From IMG/VR virus record IMGVR_UViG_3300038682_000083, positions 1-46,176 of that record: a stretch of DNA of 46,176 nucleotides; one strand, given 5' to 3'. This stretch comes from a virus. The notes under the pieces were generated by a model. It had not been told where the DNA came from. It worked only from the letters and a program-made list of their open reading frames with translations, and did not search any database. Of the stretch, positions 28,871 to 42,079 are shown one piece after another (positions within the stretch are counted from its first letter, which is position 1; the number at the start of each line of letters is the position of its first letter). The position numbers and the translations under genes are program-made.

Positions 28871-29476
28871 TTAGAATGGAATATCATCATCGAAGTTATC
28901 ATCAGCAGGTGTAGTCTGAACTACATTACCTTCAAGCTTAGCTAACATGTCAGCTGAGTTATCAGCATTCTTCATGTCTTCTTGACGAGACTCAGATAAC
29001 TTATCCCATATCTCTTTGTTAGGTTTATCGAACTCAAACATGTATACATCACAGTCTGGTTCAGCGATAGTTAACCCTGCCATAGGCTTAGTAACGTTAA
29101 TGATGTTAGCGTACACTGTACCGTCAGGCTTAGGCTTAGAGTGCTCTATCTCAATCATACACGGCTTGCCTAGCAGCTGCTCCATGTGTGTTACCTTGCT
29201 GTCGATAGCGTTGACATACTTCATCAGCGTACCGTCAGGGTTAGACGTTTGGTTAAGACCGAACTTACTAGTCCATACCATCTTCTGTTTCTCTTCACCA
29301 TCAATGTTAATAGTGAGAGCCGGTACTGTGAAACCTAGTACCACCTTAGGTTTAGACCCAAACTTGTCTGTCTGTGTGCCTATCTCAAGTATGCGTACCA
29401 ATCTAGCAGCATATAGACCTTCGTCGATTAATTCGAATGTTGTCTGCGGTGCTTCTTGTGGGTTGAAATGTGTCAT
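28871..29476 (-). CDS. Single-stranded DNA-binding protein
   Basis: A 201-residue protein with a beta-rich OB-like core and a C-terminal acidic tip (DDNFDDDIPF), the hallmark of SSB proteins that recruit replication partners. It lies between polymerase and exonuclease genes, as T7 gp2.5 does. It would coat ssDNA and coordinate primase-helicase and polymerase. One copy of the 16-bp palindrome is inside the coding sequence near its C-terminus and encodes NVVQTTP. Confidence 0.8.
   Translation of the reverse strand: MTHFNPQEAPQTTFELIDEGLYAARLVRILEIGTQTDKFGSKPKVVLGFTVPALTINIDGEEKQKMVWTSKFGLNQTSNPDGTLMKYVNAIDSKVTHMEQLLGKPCMIEIEHSKPKPDGTVYANIINVTKPMAGLTIAEPDCDVYMFEFDKPNKEIWDKLSESRQEDMKNADNSADMLAKLEGNVVQTTPADDNFDDDIPF
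28910..28925. repeat. 16-bp palindrome copy 1 (inside SSB gene)
   Basis: TGTAGTCTGAACTACA: arms TGTAGT/ACTACA intact, centre CTGA. In frame it encodes NVVQTT in the SSB protein, the same peptide as another copy in the 638-residue gene. Confidence 0.7.
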
Positions 29477-29949
29477 CCTATTTCCTTATCAATATAAAGT
29501 TTCCAGCCGTGATGAGACTTTCTCTTACCTAGTGCGACCTCAGACATATTGCCTTGAGACAAATTGTTCTCTCTTGAGAACTTAGTTAGGTTGTATATAG
29601 AGACTACCTCACCTTCTGGTGAAATGAATTTGTAGTGTTTGGCCAGAGTATGCTCAGCATTCTTCTGTCTTGTGCACCACTCTAAGTTGTCTACACTGTT
29701 GTTGGTCTTGTCTTCATCAATGTGGTTAACTTCAGGAAGATTGTTAGGATTAGGTAGATAAGCTTTTGCCACCAACCTGTGCACTTTGAAGTTAGTACGA
29801 ACACCTTCCTTGCACAAAGATAATTCCAGATAACCGTCTTTGTCAGGTGCGGGTTTAAGAATATGTTCGGAATTATTAACAACCAAACCAATCTCAGACA
29901 CCTTATAAAGCCCTTCGTATCCTAGAACATCCTTACGAGACAAGAGCAT
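29473..29949 (-). CDS. HNH homing endonuclease
   Basis: A 158-residue free-standing homing endonuclease. N-terminal NUMOD4-like segment YEGLYKVSEIG (11-21), HNH core HRLVAKAYLPNPNNLPEV (57-74) then NHIDEDKTNNSVDNLEW (75-91), and a C-terminal NUMOD1-like DNA-binding segment (about 115-155). It overlaps the SSB start by 4 bases and has a weak ribosome binding site. These genes spread by cutting related phage genomes that lack them; no intron is evident around it. Confidence 0.88.
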   Translation of the reverse strand: MLLSRKDVLGYEGLYKVSEIGLVVNNSEHILKPAPDKDGYLELSLCKEGVRTNFKVHRLVAKAYLPNPNNLPEVNHIDEDKTNNSVDNLEWCTRQKNAEHTLAKHYKFISPEGEVVSIYNLTKFSRENNLSQGNMSEVALGKRKSHHGWKLYIDKEIG

Positions 29950-30283: not shown

Positions 30284-31729
30284 TTAGTGTGTGTCGTACC
30301 AAGTGTCGCCTATCTCTGCTTCACCTTTAATTGGACACTTAGATTTTATAAAAGTTCCTGCTTTAATTATACTATCCTCTAAGATGTAAGCCACCCTAGC
30401 TGCATGTTCTTCCTTAACATGGAATTGAAATTCATCATGCTGCATGGTAACTATCTCAGCATCTAGCTCTTGCTTCTTGATAGCATCGTAAGCAAAGCAT
30501 AGCGCTACCTTCATTAAGAACTGTTCGTAGTCTTGAAGCAGATACACTAGCAGCATATGCTCAGAGTCTACGTATATTCTATTACCAGCTATGCCTAGTA
30601 TGTACCCGTTCTTCTTCCAGAACTTAGAGAGTTCTTTAAGCAACTTGGTTAATGCAGGTAAACCTTTCTCAAACTTCTTGCGTATGTCAGCTGCTACTTC
30701 TTCGCTGACTCCAAGCTGAGAAGCTGTCTTAGCAACTCCTGCTCCGAACAAGTACCCATAGAATACTCCTTTAGCATGTTGTCTAGTAACTCCTGCTCTA
30801 GCGCCGTTAAGTGAGTGGATGTCAGTGCCTTCAGACTTCTTTCCGTACTGTAGTGCATGGATAAACTCCGCATCATCTAGGTAGTGGGCTAGTCCTCGCA
30901 CCTGACACTGATCTGCATCAGCTCCTACTATCTTATAGCCTCCCTCAGAACAGAATACCTTACGCATAGGCTTCCATAAGAAGTGTGTCTTATGCCCGTC
31001 ATAAGATTCCTTGCCGGGATTAGGTACGTTAGCTATCTGCGAGTGTGTCATACGCCTAGTAGCTGCACCGATAGAGTTAACCTTAGAGGATAGCCTACCG
31101 TCAGGTCTACAGTTACGTATGAAGCCTTCGATCTGTGACTTCTTATGACGAGCTTTAGTACGGTATCCTATCAGCTTAGCTATAGGGCCAAGAGTTTCAA
31201 GATCATCAAGAGATTCATCCGTTATCTTAGGAGAAGTCTTGACACGATCACCGAAAGCATTACGTACTTCTCTCCCGTTAACCTTCTTGTAGTTCCACTC
31301 CCTTGGTTGCCAACCGTTCTTAAGCAACCATTCCTTTACCTGCTTATCAGACCCAAGGTTAATTGGAGTATACTCAATACGACAAAAGCATCCAGCAACC
31401 AAAGATTCAGTCTCGGTGTCTGTACTGTCTCCATAGATTTCTCTAATCCAGTCTGATACTTGCTTCGTATACTGTCCATTAAGTTTGTAAATCTTTTCAA
31501 CTGTAGCCCCCTTAGGTTTAATCCTAGCAGGTATGGAAGGGACAGCATAACTATCCACCCAATCCATACGTTCTTGTAGATGTGATATCTGCTTATGGCA
31601 TTCATCTTTATCGAGAGGGAATCCATTCTTCTCCATCTCGAACATGATGTCAGCTACCTTAAGCTCAAGCCGCAGTGCGTCGCTTCGAGTCAAATGTGTG
31701 GTAAAACATTTCGGTATCTTCGCACTCAC
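30284..31729 (-). CDS. DNA polymerase, family A polymerase domain (split)
   Basis: A 481-residue polymerase domain of the T7 type. Motif A VGADADQCQVRGL (about 266-278), motif B RQHAKGVFYGYLFG (about 314-327) and motif C MQHDEFQF (about 426-433) are intact. The 3'-5' exonuclease domain lies in the preceding ORF, in another frame, overlapping by 65 bases. GTG 31729 has GGAG 7 bases upstream, so separate initiation is possible. Removing one T from the run at 31703-31706 would fuse both ORFs into one ordinary polymerase, so a sequencing error or a programmed frameshift are the alternatives. Confidence 0.88.
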   Translation of the reverse strand: MSAKIPKCFTTHLTRSDALRLELKVADIMFEMEKNGFPLDKDECHKQISHLQERMDWVDSYAVPSIPARIKPKGATVEKIYKLNGQYTKQVSDWIREIYGDSTDTETESLVAGCFCRIEYTPINLGSDKQVKEWLLKNGWQPREWNYKKVNGREVRNAFGDRVKTSPKITDESLDDLETLGPIAKLIGYRTKARHKKSQIEGFIRNCRPDGRLSSKVNSIGAATRRMTHSQIANVPNPGKESYDGHKTHFLWKPMRKVFCSEGGYKIVGADADQCQVRGLAHYLDDAEFIHALQYGKKSEGTDIHSLNGARAGVTRQHAKGVFYGYLFGAGVAKTASQLGVSEEVAADIRKKFEKGLPALTKLLKELSKFWKKNGYILGIAGNRIYVDSEHMLLVYLLQDYEQFLMKVALCFAYDAIKKQELDAEIVTMQHDEFQFHVKEEHAARVAYILEDSIIKAGTFIKSKCPIKGEAEIGDTWYDTH

Positions 31730-32186
31730 GTTCCAACTCCTTAAGCATCAGCCTGTTAATCTCTACATCTTCACAACACCTGTGCCCCATAGCTGCTGTG
31801 TACTTACTCCAGTCCTTATGCTCAGGCTTACCTCTACCTACCCTATACCCCCAAGCTTCTATGCTGTGAGTAGCTCCTCCGTAGTACCCTACAGGGAGCG
31901 GTCTCTTAGGGTACAGCATACGTGAGTACACTAAGGTATCTAAGATTATCTGGTGAGACTTAGGCTTCCAACCGTATAGCTTTTCAAAGAGAGGTAGGTC
32001 ATGTCGCTTCTCGTTGTGACATACTAGAACATCACATTGATGTAGTCTAGACAACGCTACCTCTATCTGATCAGGTGCATACAAGTCTACTTCTTCCTTA
32101 CCGTACCATCCCATAGCTATGCACCAAAGGACAGAGGCTTCTTCAACGAAGCCGTCTGATTCTGAATCGTAGATTAGTATGTCCAT
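31665..32186 (-). CDS. DNA polymerase 3'-5' exonuclease domain (split)
   Basis: A 173-residue proofreading domain that in T7 is the N-terminal part of gp5. Exo I YDSESDG (D7, E9), Exo II HNEKRHDLPLFEKL (about 56-69) and Exo III CEDVEINRLML (about 137-147) are all present; HSIEAWGYRVG matches the T7 HALEAWGYRLG segment. It ends about 22 residues after the point where the reading frame of the polymerase takes over. It is either an independent exonuclease subunit or one half of a frameshifted gene. Confidence 0.87.
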   Translation of the reverse strand: MDILIYDSESDGFVEEASVLWCIAMGWYGKEEVDLYAPDQIEVALSRLHQCDVLVCHNEKRHDLPLFEKLYGWKPKSHQIILDTLVYSRMLYPKRPLPVGYYGGATHSIEAWGYRVGRGKPEHKDWSKYTAAMGHRCCEDVEINRLMLKELERECEDTEMFYHTFDSKRRTAA

Positions 32187-34429: not shown

Positions 34430-35197
34430 CTAAATCTCTATGACCTTTGTTGAATCGAAGTCAGGGTTAGTTTCGTAATTGTAATACCCATAAGGGTTAG
34501 CAACTACGCGTGTCTCTCCTATCATGTAGTCCTTAGAGCTGTGTATATGCCCGTGACACCACAACTTTATGTTAGGGTTGTCTTTGATAAGATCATCGAA
34601 CTCGTTATGGTACGCACAGTTTAGTCTATCTCCTATGAACTCATCATCACAGCTGAGGTATGACGGTGTGTGGTGAGAAACAATAACAACTTTATCTACC
34701 TGTTTGTTGCTTAGGTCTATGTCCAGATTCTTTTTAAATCTTAAGTTGTTTTCGTTAGCGTCGTAAGGAGAGAATGCCACTATCTTAGCGGTGTTAGGGT
34801 CTACTTTCTTGATAGAACGGAAGTCATTCATACTATGCTGAATGACAGGAGCGTCTTCCTCAGGGATGTTAGTCCATCCTGTACCTCCGTAGAACATAAC
34901 ACCATCTATCACTACGTTATCATTGTATAGATAGTGAACATTGTCTTGGACACAGCGATACCACAACACATCGTCTAAGGTATCTATGTCGTGATTGTAA
35001 TACTCATGGTTCCCTGATACATAAACAACAGCTTTAAACCTACCTGACAGCTCGTCTAAGAGACTTTCTTTAGCACCCCCTACGTCTATATCCCCTGCTA
35101 AGACAAGCACCGTGTCGCTGTCCTCAGGAAGTTCTGGTATCTTGTAGTCCACCGGAGCAAACTCATTATGTATGTCGCTGAATAATCTTATCTTCAT
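34430..35197 (-). CDS. Calcineurin-like metallophosphoesterase
   Basis: A 255-residue enzyme with the full metal-binding set: D-x-H (FSDIH, about 7-11), GD (LAGDID), GNHE (SGNHEYY), SHH (VIVSHHTP) and GHIH (CHGHIHSS). Family members hydrolyse phosphodiesters, nucleotides or phosphoproteins; the substrate here is unknown. It is the first gene of the replication operon, just after a sigmaE-like promoter, and has no good Shine-Dalgarno: a copy of the 16-bp palindrome occupies the 16 bases directly before its ATG. Confidence 0.88.
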   Translation of the reverse strand: MKIRLFSDIHNEFAPVDYKIPELPEDSDTVLVLAGDIDVGGAKESLLDELSGRFKAVVYVSGNHEYYNHDIDTLDDVLWYRCVQDNVHYLYNDNVVIDGVMFYGGTGWTNIPEEDAPVIQHSMNDFRSIKKVDPNTAKIVAFSPYDANENNLRFKKNLDIDLSNKQVDKVVIVSHHTPSYLSCDDEFIGDRLNCAYHNEFDDLIKDNPNIKLWCHGHIHSSKDYMIGETRVVANPYGYYNYETNPDFDSTKVIEI

Positions 35198-35213
35198 TGT
35201 AGTCTAGCCTACA
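35198..35213. repeat. 16-bp palindrome copy 2 (adjacent to a start codon)
   Basis: TGTAGTCTAGCCTACA, one mismatch from a perfect palindrome, placed directly before the ATG of the phosphoesterase gene where a Shine-Dalgarno would be. It lies between the sigmaE-like promoter and the start, so it could block transcription or translation when bound or folded. Confidence 0.7.
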
Positions 35214-35330: not shown

Positions 35331-35870
35331 TTAGTTCAATGAGGTTTCGATCATAGCCTTAGCTCTTGAGAGGCGGGATCGGACAGTGCCGATAGGTATA
35401 CTGAGCTGGTTGGCTATGTCTACGTAGCTTAGTTCATCTACGTATCGTAATGTGAATGCTTCTTTGTACTTAGCAGGGAGGGTAGCTATTCGTTTGTCTG
35501 CCTTAGCTGACAGTTCTTCCTCAATCATAAGAGACTCAGGCGTATCAGCTGTAGGTAATTCATCTACCGTATCCACTGCATCTACGTTACGTCTAGCCCT
35601 ATTCTCTAAGGCTCTGTTACAAGTGTTGATGCCTATCCTATGGAGCCAAGTATAAAACTCGCTGTCGTTGCGGAAATTATCAAGGTACTTGTAAGCCTTG
35701 ACGAACGTATCTTGTGTTGCTTCTTCTGCATCTTGTACATCCTTAAGGTATCCAAGTGTTAGCTGGTATATACGTTTGGTGTACTTGATTATCAGCTTAT
35801 CAAACTCTAAACCTTTGATAGTATCAGAGTCCGCTGCTTGTATCTTGCTTATAATTTCTTTATCAGACAT
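35331..35870 (-). CDS. ECF sigma factor, RpoE-like
   Basis: A 179-residue two-domain sigma factor. Region 2 (about 23-95) includes DAEEATQDTFVKAYKYLDNF and SEFYTWLHRIGINTC, nearly the wording of bacterial RpoE. Region 4 (about 132-179) includes LPAKYKEAFTLRYVDELSY and the helix-turn-helix IANQLSIPIGTVRSRLSRAK. It would direct host RNA polymerase to GGAACTT-type promoters. Such a promoter precedes its own gene, which suggests positive autoregulation. There is no anti-sigma gene beside it. The ribosome binding site is weak (AGG about 10 bases upstream). Confidence 0.94.
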   Translation of the reverse strand: MSDKEIISKIQAADSDTIKGLEFDKLIIKYTKRIYQLTLGYLKDVQDAEEATQDTFVKAYKYLDNFRNDSEFYTWLHRIGINTCNRALENRARRNVDAVDTVDELPTADTPESLMIEEELSAKADKRIATLPAKYKEAFTLRYVDELSYVDIANQLSIPIGTVRSRLSRAKAMIETSLN

Positions 35871-36671: not shown

Positions 36672-36687
36672 TGTAGTTTAGACTACC
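36672..36687. repeat. 16-bp palindrome copy 3
   Basis: TGTAGTTTAGACTACC, one mismatch at the last base, in the 155-base gap upstream of the 36576 gene. Confidence 0.75.
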
Positions 36688-37092: not shown

Positions 37093-37371
37093 TTACACCC
37101 GCCGGACGGCGATCTCCTCAAGGTCATGCGGTAATTTAAGTCTCCTATCTACTTCATACAGCATTGTCATTACTTCTAATAGATAGATCAGCTCTCGATC
37201 ATCCATGTCGTCTATGATATTGATCATGTGTCTGTCTGATGTTGTCAATACATCTGATTCTACAACCTCAGCTGCTTCCTCAGAGCGATTCAGATAGCAC
37301 AGTACCAATGGCATAGTCAATGCAAGCAAGCTTGCTAGGACTACGAGAAGCGGTAGAATCAACTCTATCAT
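37093..37371 (-). CDS. Early single-pass membrane protein
   Basis: A 92-residue protein with an N-terminal hydrophobic segment (about 2-28) and an acidic cytoplasmic or periplasmic part. AAGGAG lies 6 bases before ATG 37371, and a palindrome copy lies 29 bases upstream of the start. Function unknown. Confidence 0.65.
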   Translation of the reverse strand: MIELILPLLVVLASLLALTMPLVLCYLNRSEEAAEVVESDVLTTSDRHMINIIDDMDDRELIYLLEVMTMLYEVDRRLKLPHDLEEIAVRRV

Positions 37372-37399: not shown

Positions 37400-37415
37400 T
37401 GTTATCTAGACTACA
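37400..37415. repeat. 16-bp palindrome copy 4 (degenerate)
   Basis: TGTTATCTAGACTACA, two differences from the consensus in the left arm. It overlaps a CTAGAC-TACAT-GTCTAG hairpin (37406-37422). Confidence 0.6.
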
Positions 37416-38125: not shown

Positions 38126-38483
38126 GATGTCTCCTCCTTCATTAGATTAACATCTGCGGTAGCCCTATTGCTAAGACTACCTGAGTTGTTAACCTGTTGT
38201 AATCTATACCATCAACTTACTAGCCAGCTCACCACCGACTCACCTTTAAAGGTAACAGCCCCTCAACGCAGAACGCTTGAGCTGTAGTGTAGTTTAGACT
38301 ACATGATAGTTTCACTGGCGAACCTATAGCACCTGATAGCTGTGCTACAATAGCTACTGACGACATCCTGTTCACACCGTTCATAAGTTATAGGGTTTCA
38401 AACCTGCTTATGATGCTACGTATCAGTGCTACTAACGCTATGTCTACCAGCCCAGCTCCTATCTACTAAACAGTACCACTAAA
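38126..38483. other. Non-coding early gap, 358 bases
   Basis: No convincing gene. It contains one palindrome copy (38288-38303), a TAGCAC/GTGCTA hairpin (near 38314-38334) and further short inverted repeats such as AACCTATAG-type stems. A 45-codon frame (38366-38229) lacks a ribosome binding site and was not called. Confidence 0.55.
38288..38303. repeat. 16-bp palindrome copy 5
   Basis: TGTAGTTTAGACTACA, full match, 163 bases upstream of the 38125 start. Confidence 0.85.
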
Positions 38484-38975: not shown

Positions 38976-39053
38976 AAGTTTCTCCTCAAAAATAATTGTT
39001 GATTTTTGGTGGAACATTTTACTGTAGCTGTCCAAGCTTTGTTACTTACCGCT

Positions 39054-39125
39054 ACTAGGAGTGAACCGTTTGTGATCACTGACCTCCTGCTTCAAAGGCA
39101 GACGCTCTACTCTGAGCTACCTAGT
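39054..39125 (-). tRNA. Degenerate tRNA-like element, anticodon TTG (Gln)
   Basis: Read on the - strand: acceptor ACTAGG/CCTAGT (six pairs), TA, D arm GCTC/GAGC, anticodon arm TCTGC-CTTTGAA-GCAGG with anticodon TTG, then a T arm AGTGA/TCACT whose loop is 11 bases instead of 7 and lacks TTCRA. There is no encoded CCA. The cloverleaf up to the anticodon arm is convincing, the T arm is not. It may be a decayed tRNA, a tRNA mimic or an attachment-like remnant. Confidence 0.45.
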
Positions 39126-39161
39126 GTTGGGTATCTTTCTTACTGTAGACCAGACTAGTGG

Positions 39162-39177
39162 GGTAGTCTAGACTACA
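39162..39177. repeat. 16-bp palindrome copy 6
   Basis: GGTAGTCTAGACTACA, one mismatch at the first base, with the fully symmetric CTAG centre. Confidence 0.75.
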
Positions 39178-39533: not shown

Positions 39534-39677
39534 ATGTACACCTTGTTAAGGCGGTTTGTCTGGTCGTTTTGTTGTTGTGTTCATGTTGTTGTCCGTTGTA
39601 GTTTAGACTACATGGTTAGTTGCGGGCACAACTATTGCAAGGGGTTGGCTTGTGTGCCCTGTGTTATCTATCAGTGA
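39534..39677 (+). CDS. Possible Cys-rich 47-residue ORF on opposite strand
   Basis: A short rightward frame with an ideal AGGAGG four bases before ATG 39534. The product is rich in Cys (nine) and aromatic residues and includes CSLDY, encoded by a palindrome copy. It runs against the direction of all neighbours and overlaps the 3' end of the 638-residue gene by 7 bases. No promoter was found, so the good ribosome binding site may be a by-product of the stem at 39518-39526. Confidence 0.22.
   Translation: MYTLLRRFVWSFCCCVHVVVRCSLDYMVSCGHNYCKGLACVPCVIYQ
39597..39612. repeat. 16-bp palindrome copy 7
   Basis: TGTAGTTTAGACTACA, full match, 59 bases downstream of the stop of the 638-residue gene. 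Confidence 0.85.
39624..39659 (-). other. Hairpin after 638-residue gene
   Basis: GGGCACA pairs with TGTGCCC around a 20-base loop, beginning 12 bases past the stop. No T tract follows, so a processing or stabilising hairpin is more likely than an intrinsic terminator. Confidence 0.5.
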
Positions 39678-41587
39678 GCAAGGCGCATCGCCTGTCTAAT
39701 ACGCTGACGTTCATCAGCCTTAGACTTGCGTTGCAACTTAGCTGCCTGACGTTTAGCTTTTATCTCAGCTTTACGTGCAGCCTTTGCCTCCTCTGCTTTC
39801 TTACGTTTGTTAACGGTGTATGGATTTACATCCATCAATAAAACTTTCTTAACATTCTTACCTAACTTGATAAGCTCACTAGCTGCTTTGTTCACAGGCT
39901 TAGTTAATAAGTACTGCATGTTAAGCGCAGCCTCTTGCTTCTCCCACCATCGTACATACGCAGCACGCTGATGTGTTGGCTTGAATGAATACTGCTTGTT
40001 AATAACCCTTGCGTAGTTCACCTCAGTCTTATTAGTACTTCGGTTATTCCACTTATGAATCACAGCTCGGTTATGTACCAAGCTCCCGACATCCCTTACT
40101 GCTTGACGCTTAGCATGATCAACACCTAGCTTGTGAAGATACTTGGTGTACTGTGCACGCTTGTAGTTTAGACTACATGCCTTACCTTTAACACCTATCC
40201 TACGTAGAGCATTCGCTTCTTCACGTACCAGCTTGAGCGTAGCTCTGCACTGTGCGTTGTACGTCTTCAGTCTCTCGCTATCGTTAGCATTGTAACCGCT
40301 AACACGTAGGAAGTTCTTCACAGCATCACTACGATGCAGTGTCATGTAAGATTTAAATTGTTCACGCAGTTCAGGTAATGGCGGGGTTGGCATATTACCT
40401 TTGGGCGGTGCAGCGTAAGGGTATTCTCCCTTATTCACACACACTTCCCACATCAAGAAGTTATTCTCGTCAGAGATCATAGCTTTTTCTTCTGCAAGAT
40501 AGCTGTTCTCTCTTTCTAAATCCTTGACCTGTTGTTGTAGGTTGGACAGCTGTTGCTCATAGCTGTTCATCAGCACAGTCCTACGATACTGCTCACCGCT
40601 ACCTATTACAGTAGGCTTCGCTTCATCTTGGACATACGCTTGGATGTGCTCAATAATATCTTCAGGCCAATCTTCAGGCTTAACATTATGTGCATACCAA
40701 CCTGCTGTTGCATCATCTGGAACCCACGAAGGGTCATTACGAGCAGCACTCATAATCTGTACTATACCTAGCACACCTTTGCTTTCTTTCCTGTTACGCC
40801 CTGTCTTGCCGAGCGTCGATGTCTTGAATACACCGCACTTGCCTACCTCGCTAGGCGTTGTAGTCTGGACTACATTACTGTCAGCAACACGCTTACATAT
40901 CTCAGCATGTTCCTTAATGAGAACGTTAGTCTCATGGTCACGCTTACGGATAGCTGTTGAGCCTCCATAAAAATCTGACACATCAGAGTTACTCTTGATT
41001 AAATCCATGTGCTCGTTAATCAAGCGGCGCTTAGCCTTGGCATCACGCTTACGTGCTATCTCAGCAGCGTTATGTTCTCCTGACTCAAGCATCTTAAGGC
41101 GTGCTTGTTGTCGTGCTACCAGCTCCCCTTCGGGTAGGTATATGGTACCGAGCTTAGCTTTGAATGCTAACTTCTCGTAAAAGGATTTCTCTTTTTCAAC
41201 GTTGTAGTTTAGACTACATTGCTTTGTTACTGGCGGAGCTGTGCTCAACGCTTTGTTCTTTCGACTAGCCTGACGCTGTTCCTTAGTTTGATAAGGGATA
41301 TGCTCAGGGTTTTTCTTAACACCTATCGTACCAATGACAGGGGCTAGATGTTTCTTAACATGGCTAGGGTTATCTTTGATAGCCTCAGCCGGTGGCTTAC
41401 ACTGCTCTTCAACAGCAGTAAAAGCCTGCGCCATTGGTGTCTTAGCGGATGGCGGTGCCGCTGGTTTACGAGAGATCGGATTACCTTCATGATCTATAGG
41501 TATCCTCACTATGGTTTCACGAAACCGTATGGTTTTCTTTTCATCATGGCCACGGGTAGACCGCCGCCCTTTTCTTTTCTTAGCCAT
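39671..41587 (-). CDS. Large basic early protein, unknown
   Basis: A 638-residue, very basic protein, by far the largest early product. It has a Lys/Arg-rich N-terminus (MAKKRKGRRSTRG), a coiled coil at about 342-378 (LSNLQQQVKDLERENSYL), and a C-terminal run of Lys/Ala/Arg helices (EEAKAARKAEIKAKRQAAKL). Nucleic acid or ribosome binding is suggested by charge alone. Three palindrome copies lie inside the gene; two in the same frame encode CSLNY. ATG 41587 has GAGG and AAGG upstream and is preferred over a longer frame from 41608. I do not recognise a family. Confidence 0.75.
   Translation of the reverse strand: MAKKRKGRRSTRGHDEKKTIRFRETIVRIPIDHEGNPISRKPAAPPSAKTPMAQAFTAVEEQCKPPAEAIKDNPSHVKKHLAPVIGTIGVKKNPEHIPYQTKEQRQASRKNKALSTAPPVTKQCSLNYNVEKEKSFYEKLAFKAKLGTIYLPEGELVARQQARLKMLESGEHNAAEIARKRDAKAKRRLINEHMDLIKSNSDVSDFYGGSTAIRKRDHETNVLIKEHAEICKRVADSNVVQTTTPSEVGKCGVFKTSTLGKTGRNRKESKGVLGIVQIMSAARNDPSWVPDDATAGWYAHNVKPEDWPEDIIEHIQAYVQDEAKPTVIGSGEQYRRTVLMNSYEQQLSNLQQQVKDLERENSYLAEEKAMISDENNFLMWEVCVNKGEYPYAAPPKGNMPTPPLPELREQFKSYMTLHRSDAVKNFLRVSGYNANDSERLKTYNAQCRATLKLVREEANALRRIGVKGKACSLNYKRAQYTKYLHKLGVDHAKRQAVRDVGSLVHNRAVIHKWNNRSTNKTEVNYARVINKQYSFKPTHQRAAYVRWWEKQEAALNMQYLLTKPVNKAASELIKLGKNVKKVLLMDVNPYTVNKRKKAEEAKAARKAEIKAKRQAAKLQRKSKADERQRIRQAMRLAH
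40162..40177. repeat. 16-bp palindrome copy 8 (inside a gene)
   Basis: TGTAGTTTAGACTACA, full match, inside the 638-residue gene, encoding CSLNY on the - strand. Confidence 0.85.
40859..40874. repeat. 16-bp palindrome copy 9 (inside a gene)
   Basis: TGTAGTCTGGACTACA, arms intact, centre CTGG, inside the 638-residue gene and encoding NVVQTT as in the SSB gene. Confidence 0.75.
41203..41218. repeat. 16-bp palindrome copy 10 (inside a gene)
   Basis: TGTAGTTTAGACTACA, full match, inside the 638-residue gene, again encoding CSLNY in the same frame as copy 8. Confidence 0.85.
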
Positions 41588-41642
41588 TGCCTTGTCCTCT
41601 ATCAACAATGAATGAATGATTAGTTGTTGTTCAAAATTGTAT

Positions 41643-41809
41643 GTGACCTGCTATAGTAAGCTCCGACTGTGCAGATTGTAGTCTAAACTACACGTGCATT
41701 CCCTTTCATATAGCTCCCGTAGTCTGTCCAAAGGCGACGACGTTATCATATAGCAGTCAGCTATGAGTACTTTACCTCGCGGAGTACCGTTGTTATATTA
41801 GCAGGTCAC
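41643..41809 (-). other. Long-range inverted repeat in gene leader
   Basis: GTGACCTGCTA (41643-41653) is perfectly complementary to TAGCAGGTCAC (41799-41809), enclosing 145 bases that include a palindrome copy. It lies in the 255-base leader of the 638-residue gene and would close a domain like the one at 28524-28688. No gene is evident in this leader. Confidence 0.5.
41677..41692. repeat. 16-bp palindrome copy 11 (reverse orientation)
   Basis: TGTAGTCTAAACTACA, the exact reverse complement of the common form, 90 bases upstream of the 638-residue gene. Confidence 0.85.
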
Positions 41810-41842: not shown

Positions 41843-42079
41843 TCAAGGACACTCTTGACCTACCTTACGTAACAGTTTCTTAACTTCCATCTTGCACAAA
41901 GCTACCTCAAACATACCATCGTAACAATATTCAATTGCGTTCCTGACATCAGGCCATAATGCGTTTAGTCGCTGGCACTCTTCGCTAGTCAGGGCTATAT
42001 CAAGTTCTAGTAAGACTTGTTTCTCATAGTTGCCTAATGAGTACGTGTTACGCATGGAATTCGAGTGTACCTTTTTCAT
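41843..42079 (-). CDS. Early hypothetical protein
   Basis: A 78-residue soluble helical protein (MKKVHSNSMRNTYSL...). GGAG lies 6 bases before ATG 42079. Unknown family. Confidence 0.62.
   Translation of the reverse strand: MKKVHSNSMRNTYSLGNYEKQVLLELDIALTSEECQRLNALWPDVRNAIEYCYDGMFEVALCKMEVKKLLRKVGQECP

Follow-up and report, generated by a model that had tools for sequence, protein, structure and literature searches.

A dispersed 16-bp palindrome in the early half of a podovirus genome is retained at the DNA level and tracks a small early protein family in related phages

Genome setting and the palindrome array

We analyzed a stretch of 46,176 nucleotides (the window; IMG/VR record IMGVR_UViG_3300038682_000083) that represents a marine podovirus of the Zobellviridae type, with a terminase 42 to 48% identical to those of Vibrio phages VP41s3 and ICP2 and Salinivibrio phage CW02. 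The plus strand (0 to 25 kb) carries the structural genes, and the minus strand carries the replication and early genes, including an SSB-like gene, an early gene with no assigned function (the 638-residue gene), and a candidate regulator gene (Table 1). The DNA polymerase (30284 to 32186, minus strand) is split into overlapping exonuclease and polymerase open reading frames (ORFs), with an HNH endonuclease (29473 to 29949) nearby. It is likewise split in one relative described below (G007) and is a single gene in two others (G008 and GX1). Perfect inverted copies of GTTTCCCAGTCACGATC, which resembles an amplification primer, form the two ends of the window (positions 1 to 17 and 46160 to 46176); thus, these ends probably arose as library preparation artefacts.

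The palindrome TGTAGTYTARACTACA was present in 18 copies with zero to two mismatches in the whole window; ten order-3 Markov shuffles averaged 0 copies. The single match with three mismatches corresponded to the chance level. When 14-mers with up to one mismatch were counted, the window contained 15 copies and the shuffles a maximum of 2. All 18 copies were located within 28.9 to 45.9 kb (i.e., the minus-strand early/replication half), and the structural half, scanned with the same tolerance of up to two mismatches, contained none. The general form of the 16-bp word is TGTnnnCnnGnnnACA, which is two-fold symmetric.

Table 1. Genes, predicted promoters, and palindrome copies in the window
Feature	Position	Strand	Remarks
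SSB-like gene (phrog_862)	28871..29476	-	Protein ends DDDIPF
Palindrome copy	28910..28925		SSB-like gene, linker before DDDIPF tail; peptide NVVQTT
Palindrome copy	32041..32056		Polymerase exonuclease gene; TAG to TTG avoids stop; peptide LSRLH
Palindrome copy	35198..35213		Abuts ATG of metallophosphoesterase gene
Palindrome copy	36672..36687		Intergenic
Palindrome copy	37400..37415		Intergenic; 28 nt upstream of ORF 37093-37371
Palindrome copy	38288..38303		Intergenic
Palindrome copy	39162..39177		Intergenic; 35 nt upstream of tRNA gene (39052-39126, -)
Palindrome copy	39597..39612		Intergenic; downstream of 638-residue gene
Early gene with three palindrome copies	39671..41608	-	No function assigned; 645 aa from TTG, 638 aa from MAKKRKG...
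Palindrome copy	40162..40177		638-residue gene, frame 0; peptide CSLNY
Palindrome copy	40859..40874		638-residue gene, centre TAG to CAG; peptide NVVQTT
Palindrome copy	41203..41218		638-residue gene, frame 0; peptide CSLNY
Palindrome copy	41677..41692		Intergenic; upstream of 638-residue gene
Palindrome copy	42267..42282		Intergenic; between candidate regulator and ORF 41843-42079
Candidate regulator gene	42442..43107	-	221 aa; putative remote family member (hhalign and position)
Palindrome copy	43182..43197		74 nt upstream of candidate regulator start
Six sigma70-like promoters (predicted)	43585..45243	-	Scores 10-12 of 12; taken as early promoters
Palindrome copy	44134..44149		Intergenic; 13 nt upstream of ORF 43959-44120
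Palindrome copy	44305..44320		Supplies stop codon of ORF 44316-44582
Palindrome copy	45114..45129		Intergenic; 86 nt downstream of -10 box of predicted 12/12 sigma70-like promoter (45243-45216, -)
Palindrome copy	45911..45926		16 nt upstream of ORF 45691-45894

Palindrome copies begin 86 to 390 nt downstream of the predicted early promoters and continue through the operons, and none in the window overlaps a predicted promoter scoring at least 10 of 12. They are often located at gene junctions, directly upstream of a Shine-Dalgarno sequence, and most of those in the window and in G007 are intergenic. The early promoter cluster also contains a perfect 20-nt inverted repeat, TTGTCAAGTGCTTTGTTGTG, at 44711 to 44730 and 44966 to 44985 (235 nt apart). 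The tRNA gene of the window, apparently with the anticodon TTG, was found by Rfam and not by ARAGORN; in G007, a palindrome is also located just upstream of a tRNA-Arg gene (L022 18331-18407).

Scanning IMG/VR with the window word yielded two further records, G007 (49,976 bp) and G008 (45,006 bp), with 12 to 13 copies each; G002 and G008 are one virus, and G002 was left out of the counts. The replication proteins common to these two phages and the window are only about 30 to 45% identical. When all 16,384 14-bp palindromes were searched in each genome separately, each of the three (the window, G007, and G008) independently gave GTAGTCTAGACTAC as the top-ranked one. Other lineages carry other words. 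GX1-k141_326647 (GX1) contains GTTGTCTAGACAAC four times in the corresponding region, and the word of GX1 and contigs G018 and G019 is TGTTGTCTAGACAACA. Vibrio breoganii phages have a dispersed word, TGTATACATGTATACA, that is unlike the window word in appearance but equal in size, and contig L043 has three ACTAGTCTAGACTAAT-like words in the 400 bp preceding a gene of the regulator family described below. The half-sites are GTAGTC, GTTGTC, CTAGTC/TTAGTC, or GTATACA depending on the lineage, and these lineages have divergent regulators. Between the two V. breoganii isolates, the words showed 0/80 changes versus 10/341, a difference that points toward conservation of the words but is nonsignificant (P = 0.22). 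Two copies of a similar word each were found in G010/G005 and in G020. The word was absent from the sigma factor-bearing relatives CW02, T2S2, and 1.264.O, and a search of ICP2 found no palindrome array. Two apparent arrays were rejected, namely, that of VP41s3 as collagen-like repeats and that of G010 as terminator-like hairpins (L028-L030; many copies of AAGTGCAnnTGCACTTT genome-wide, most followed by T runs).

Palindromes inside genes

The earlier note on this DNA described three palindrome copies in the 638-residue gene, of which two encode CSLNY and one NVVQTT, and a copy in the SSB gene that also encodes NVVQTT. Both observations were confirmed. On the coding strand, the copies at 40162 and 41203 read TGT AGT CTA AAC TAC (CSLNY), the copy at 40859 reads AAT GTA GTC CAG ACT ACA, and the copy in the SSB-like gene reads AAT GTA GTT CAG ACT ACA (NVVQTT in both). 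The further claim, in which preservation of the DNA word is what gives unrelated proteins their common peptides, was supported by frame shifts between homologous genes and by deviations from the word that avoid stop codons.

A perfect word holds TAG at positions 3 to 5 and 8 to 10. In-gene copies whose frame reads positions 8 to 10 had CAG or TAC there in all four cases (giving VVQTT or VVYTT), compared with 2 of the 39 other copies (P = 1.2e-4), and TTG stood at positions 3 to 5 in the one copy read in the frame of that triplet. Copies in frame 0 need no change, and their peptide is C/S/R-S-L-D/N-Y. Given that an in-frame stop is impossible in a gene, the missing TAG is expected; the informative observation is the preservation of all other parts of the word on both sides of a minimal change. 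Furthermore, six genes terminate within the word, using its stop codon. The same peptides thus recur because the reading frame through the word dictates them.

No homologues of the 638-residue protein were detected in IMG/VR or among 50,697 phage records, and comparison with the large early protein that GX1 and G019 encode showed no relation. The comparison of homologues that had been suggested for this gene was run on other genes, in which the same word, in different frames and places, gave different peptides. In the polymerase exonuclease domain, the encoded peptide is ALSRLH for the window and RSLDYM for G008, with the two words offset by 4 nt, and G007 has no word. In the amidoligase, the word occupies a different place in each of two phages and encodes RSLDYS (G007) or IVVYTT (G008). 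In the COOH-NH2 ligase, G008 accommodates the word in a conserved stretch (CSPDYNAW; CDPDINAW in G007), with one central mismatch that preserves the proline. The word aligns without gaps in all three genes. The sole gap case was in G019, in which the word lies in a low-complexity stretch of five residues that is absent from the GX1 homologue, and this case is ambiguous. We conclude that retention of the word at the DNA level is well supported.

G008 also encodes six small paralogues (L024 5415-6557 and 10367-10947) with differing N-terminal halves and a common C-terminal tail, SSLDYMNDDxLSDEDKxII. SSLDYM is common to five of them, and the paralogue without the word also lacks the peptide (RSTDYM). 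Across the six, the codons of the common SSLDYM are less variable than those of adjacent conserved residues. Protein and DNA constraints are not fully separable in these paralogues.

A candidate regulator family

An early protein family of about 190 to 245 aa, with the core PRxWSQxKSnxxAAyxlGLD, is encoded by G007, G008, and GX1. In the first genome set compared, it was the only nonstructural family that the phages with the word had in common and those without it lacked. When the window was searched by hhalign, ORF 42442-43107 ranked first of 259 ORFs (E = 5e-4; 7.8e-5 with a fuller profile), and the HMMER match was not significant (E = 1.2). The palindrome copy 74 nt upstream of this gene lends positional support to the assignment. 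On the basis of these results, the window gene is probably, if by no means certainly, a member of the family.

We examined the link between word and protein in both directions. Phages were chosen solely for the family protein and then checked for the word: besides GX1, the 50,697 phage records yielded V. breoganii phages, and the two examined both carry a word array. Together with L043, whose family homologue is 57% identical, the word was present in both of the lineages tested. In the opposite direction, IMG/VR was scanned with the GX1 word and contigs with at least three copies were kept (G018 and G019); both encode the family (hmmsearch E values of 5.6e-20 and 1e-31). A word copy lies 26 to 223 nt upstream of the family gene in the window, G007, GX1, G018, G019, L043, and V1034. 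Unlike these seven lineages, G008 has no copy in front of its family gene. Thus, the word tracks this small early protein family in the relatives.

The candidate protein had no match in Pfam, PHROG, or PDB sequences, and no known DNA-binding fold was recognized. AlphaFold models were of low confidence (pLDDT, 52 and 61; only residues 110 to 155 of the latter exceeded 80) and gave no PDB match with Foldseek; given this low confidence, the Foldseek lists served only as leads. One lead, Pseudomonas phage PPpW-3, has a weakly similar protein (hhalign E = 5e-4), and we found no dispersed palindrome in that phage. Pseudomonas phage DDSR119, with another remote homologue, has no clear dispersed palindrome, and MR5, also with a remote homologue, has three weak copies of TTAACGCGTTAA. 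The link between word and protein thus applies within this podovirus group and does not extend to all remote homologues. No family member was detected in G010/G005 or G020 despite their two similar words, and ICP2 gp27 was a borderline match to the family. The family is consistent with a role as the regulator that reads the word, although for the window gene in particular this identity is put forward as a candidate one.

Between two palindromes upstream of its regulator gene, G007 contains tandem repeats of TTATGACAATTATGGTCACA (L022 15004-15070; G007 35004-35070), which are possibly iterons or additional operator sites.

Proposed role of the word

To characterize how the word varies, we counted pair changes in 43 copies from three phages. 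Of the 52 changed pairs, 51 were one-sided (42 unpaired and 9 G-U) and 1 was compensated. Between lineages, changes were symmetric in both half-sites, and within a lineage they were one-sided. This combination suits a protein that binds DNA as a dimer; it does not suit an RNA stem. Of the mechanisms suggested in the earlier note, selection at the DNA level is supported, selection on an RNA hairpin is disfavored by these counts, and a mobile in-frame element finds no support in the gapless alignments. The word has a partial orientation bias (centre CTAA, 10 versus 2 in the window; a 5' A in G008 and V1034; none in G007).

We suggest, with about even confidence, that the word is the operator of a dimeric phage-encoded early regulator that probably hinders early transcription. 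The regulator would be made early in infection and would bind the two-fold symmetric 16-bp word, presumably as a dimer, at sites distributed over the transcription units for early and replication genes and usually also before its own gene. The bound protein would stand in the path of RNA polymerase and would most likely hinder or shut off early transcription, as a roadblock or in a stoperator-like manner; repression of this kind is the direction that we prefer. Through the site before its own gene, the regulator may limit its own expression. Sites within genes would be retained as binding sites, and the frame would hence decide the peptide.

Sites in double-stranded DNA could instead serve a phage protein in activation or antitermination, in replication or segregation, or in organizing or marking phage DNA, without blocking transcription. 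This reading is unlikely. In its favor, the evidence for recognition of double-stranded DNA fits it equally, and the sites span the replication half of the window and avoid its strong predicted promoters. Placement at junctions before ribosome-binding sites and upstream of the regulator gene nevertheless points to transcription control, and a ParB-like gene was not found among the window ORFs scanned. In the V. breoganii phages, the word lies mostly between a gene stop and the next ribosome-binding site; 5 of 6 copies in V1034 are fully intergenic, against 18% of all positions (P = 0.001). Proximity to Shine-Dalgarno sequences would also suit an RNA hairpin in early mRNA, bound by protein or processed, that controls translation or decay, and the word can fold as a 6-bp stem with a 4-nt loop. 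We consider such a hairpin improbable in view of the near absence of compensated changes. Moreover, the would-be loop (i.e., the central four bases) is itself palindromic in the lineage consensus words, and Rfam matches were to tRNA only.

Capture of the site of a host DNA-binding protein might explain the different words, as the phages concerned probably do not infect the same hosts. However, exact TGTAGTCTAGACTACA occurred only eight times, singly, in 84,980 bacterial and archaeal genomes (GTDB scan), and word and phage gene go together in both test directions; we regard this origin as very improbable. A mobile short in-frame element, or conservation of the peptides at the protein level, is scarcely credible. 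SSLDYM in five G008 paralogues and the G019 stretch missing from the GX1 homologue are in its favor, but the gapless placement in three genes, the differing frames and peptides in homologous genes, and the mostly intergenic copies of the window and G007 have largely refuted it.

Several known systems resemble the proposed operator array in part. Stoperators of Cluster A (L5-like) mycobacteriophages are short sites with many copies genome-wide, most of them away from promoters; their consensus is lineage-specific and shifts with the regulator, a site precedes the regulator gene, and the mycobacteriophage L5 repressor blocks elongation at them (PMC6550527). The window array is likewise numerous, dispersed, and off the predicted promoters, with a lineage-specific consensus alongside divergent regulators and a site in front of the candidate regulator gene. 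However, the window word is 16 bp and symmetric, whereas the stoperator is 13 bp, asymmetric, and oriented with transcription, and no relation between the candidate regulator and helix-turn-helix repressors was detectable. An immunity repressor of the L5 gp71 kind was not found among the window ORFs scanned, nor was an integrase or lysogeny gene among the window genes scanned. Given the common features together with the symmetric site, the unrelated candidate, and the lack of a lysogeny gene, the array may be stoperator-like in its action yet fall outside that system.

Operators of lambda-type repressor/cro systems share the symmetry and size of the site, and in G010 a related word, read by eye, lies beside a divergent promoter as in classical operators. 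Unlike those operators, the word has a dozen or more copies over about 17 kb, both within genes and at junctions, and no helix-turn-helix repressor was found in the window ORFs scanned. The parS sites of plasmids and phage N15 are 16-bp palindromes with several copies per genome, as is the window word, but neither ParA nor ParB was found among the window ORFs scanned, and the sites follow the gene junctions of early operons. A sigma factor gene (35331 to 35870) near the array recalls the phage sigma factor promoters of the phiEco32 gp36 type; the word, however, is palindromic with no -35/-10 arrangement, and the sigma-encoding phages CW02, T2S2, and 1.264.O lack it. Unlike REP or MITE-like mobile repeats, the copies are not insertions relative to homologues in the three gene alignments.

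Multisite operators at which elongation is hindered are documented chiefly for temperate actinobacteriophages. Should the proposed role be true, their occurrence in symmetric form in marine podoviruses that lack recognized lysogeny genes would indicate that the strategy is wider and is used in lytic control. We tentatively extend this to a broader, rather doubtful proposal, namely, that marine podoviruses that appear to be lytic have their early transcription controlled by a new family of phage regulators, which lack a known fold and bind DNA at a dozen or more symmetric stoperator-like sites, with regulator and site specificity having coevolved into several incompatible codes. The array also offers a worked example of putative DNA-binding sites that constrain protein sequence, in that the frame of a regulatory word sets the peptide and stop codon avoidance shows how far the word can bend.

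Isolates exist in the form of V. breoganii phages 1.034.O and 1.015.O, which makes this a directly testable system. In 1.034.O (L040), the main word is accompanied near the regulator gene by repeated occurrences of a variant one base longer, GTATACACTGTATAC (e.g., 42905-42927 and 43257-43279). The annotated CRISPR spacers of the same phage (L040 39761-40081) sit in an 18-nt tandem repeat within a coding gene and are probably a misannotation.
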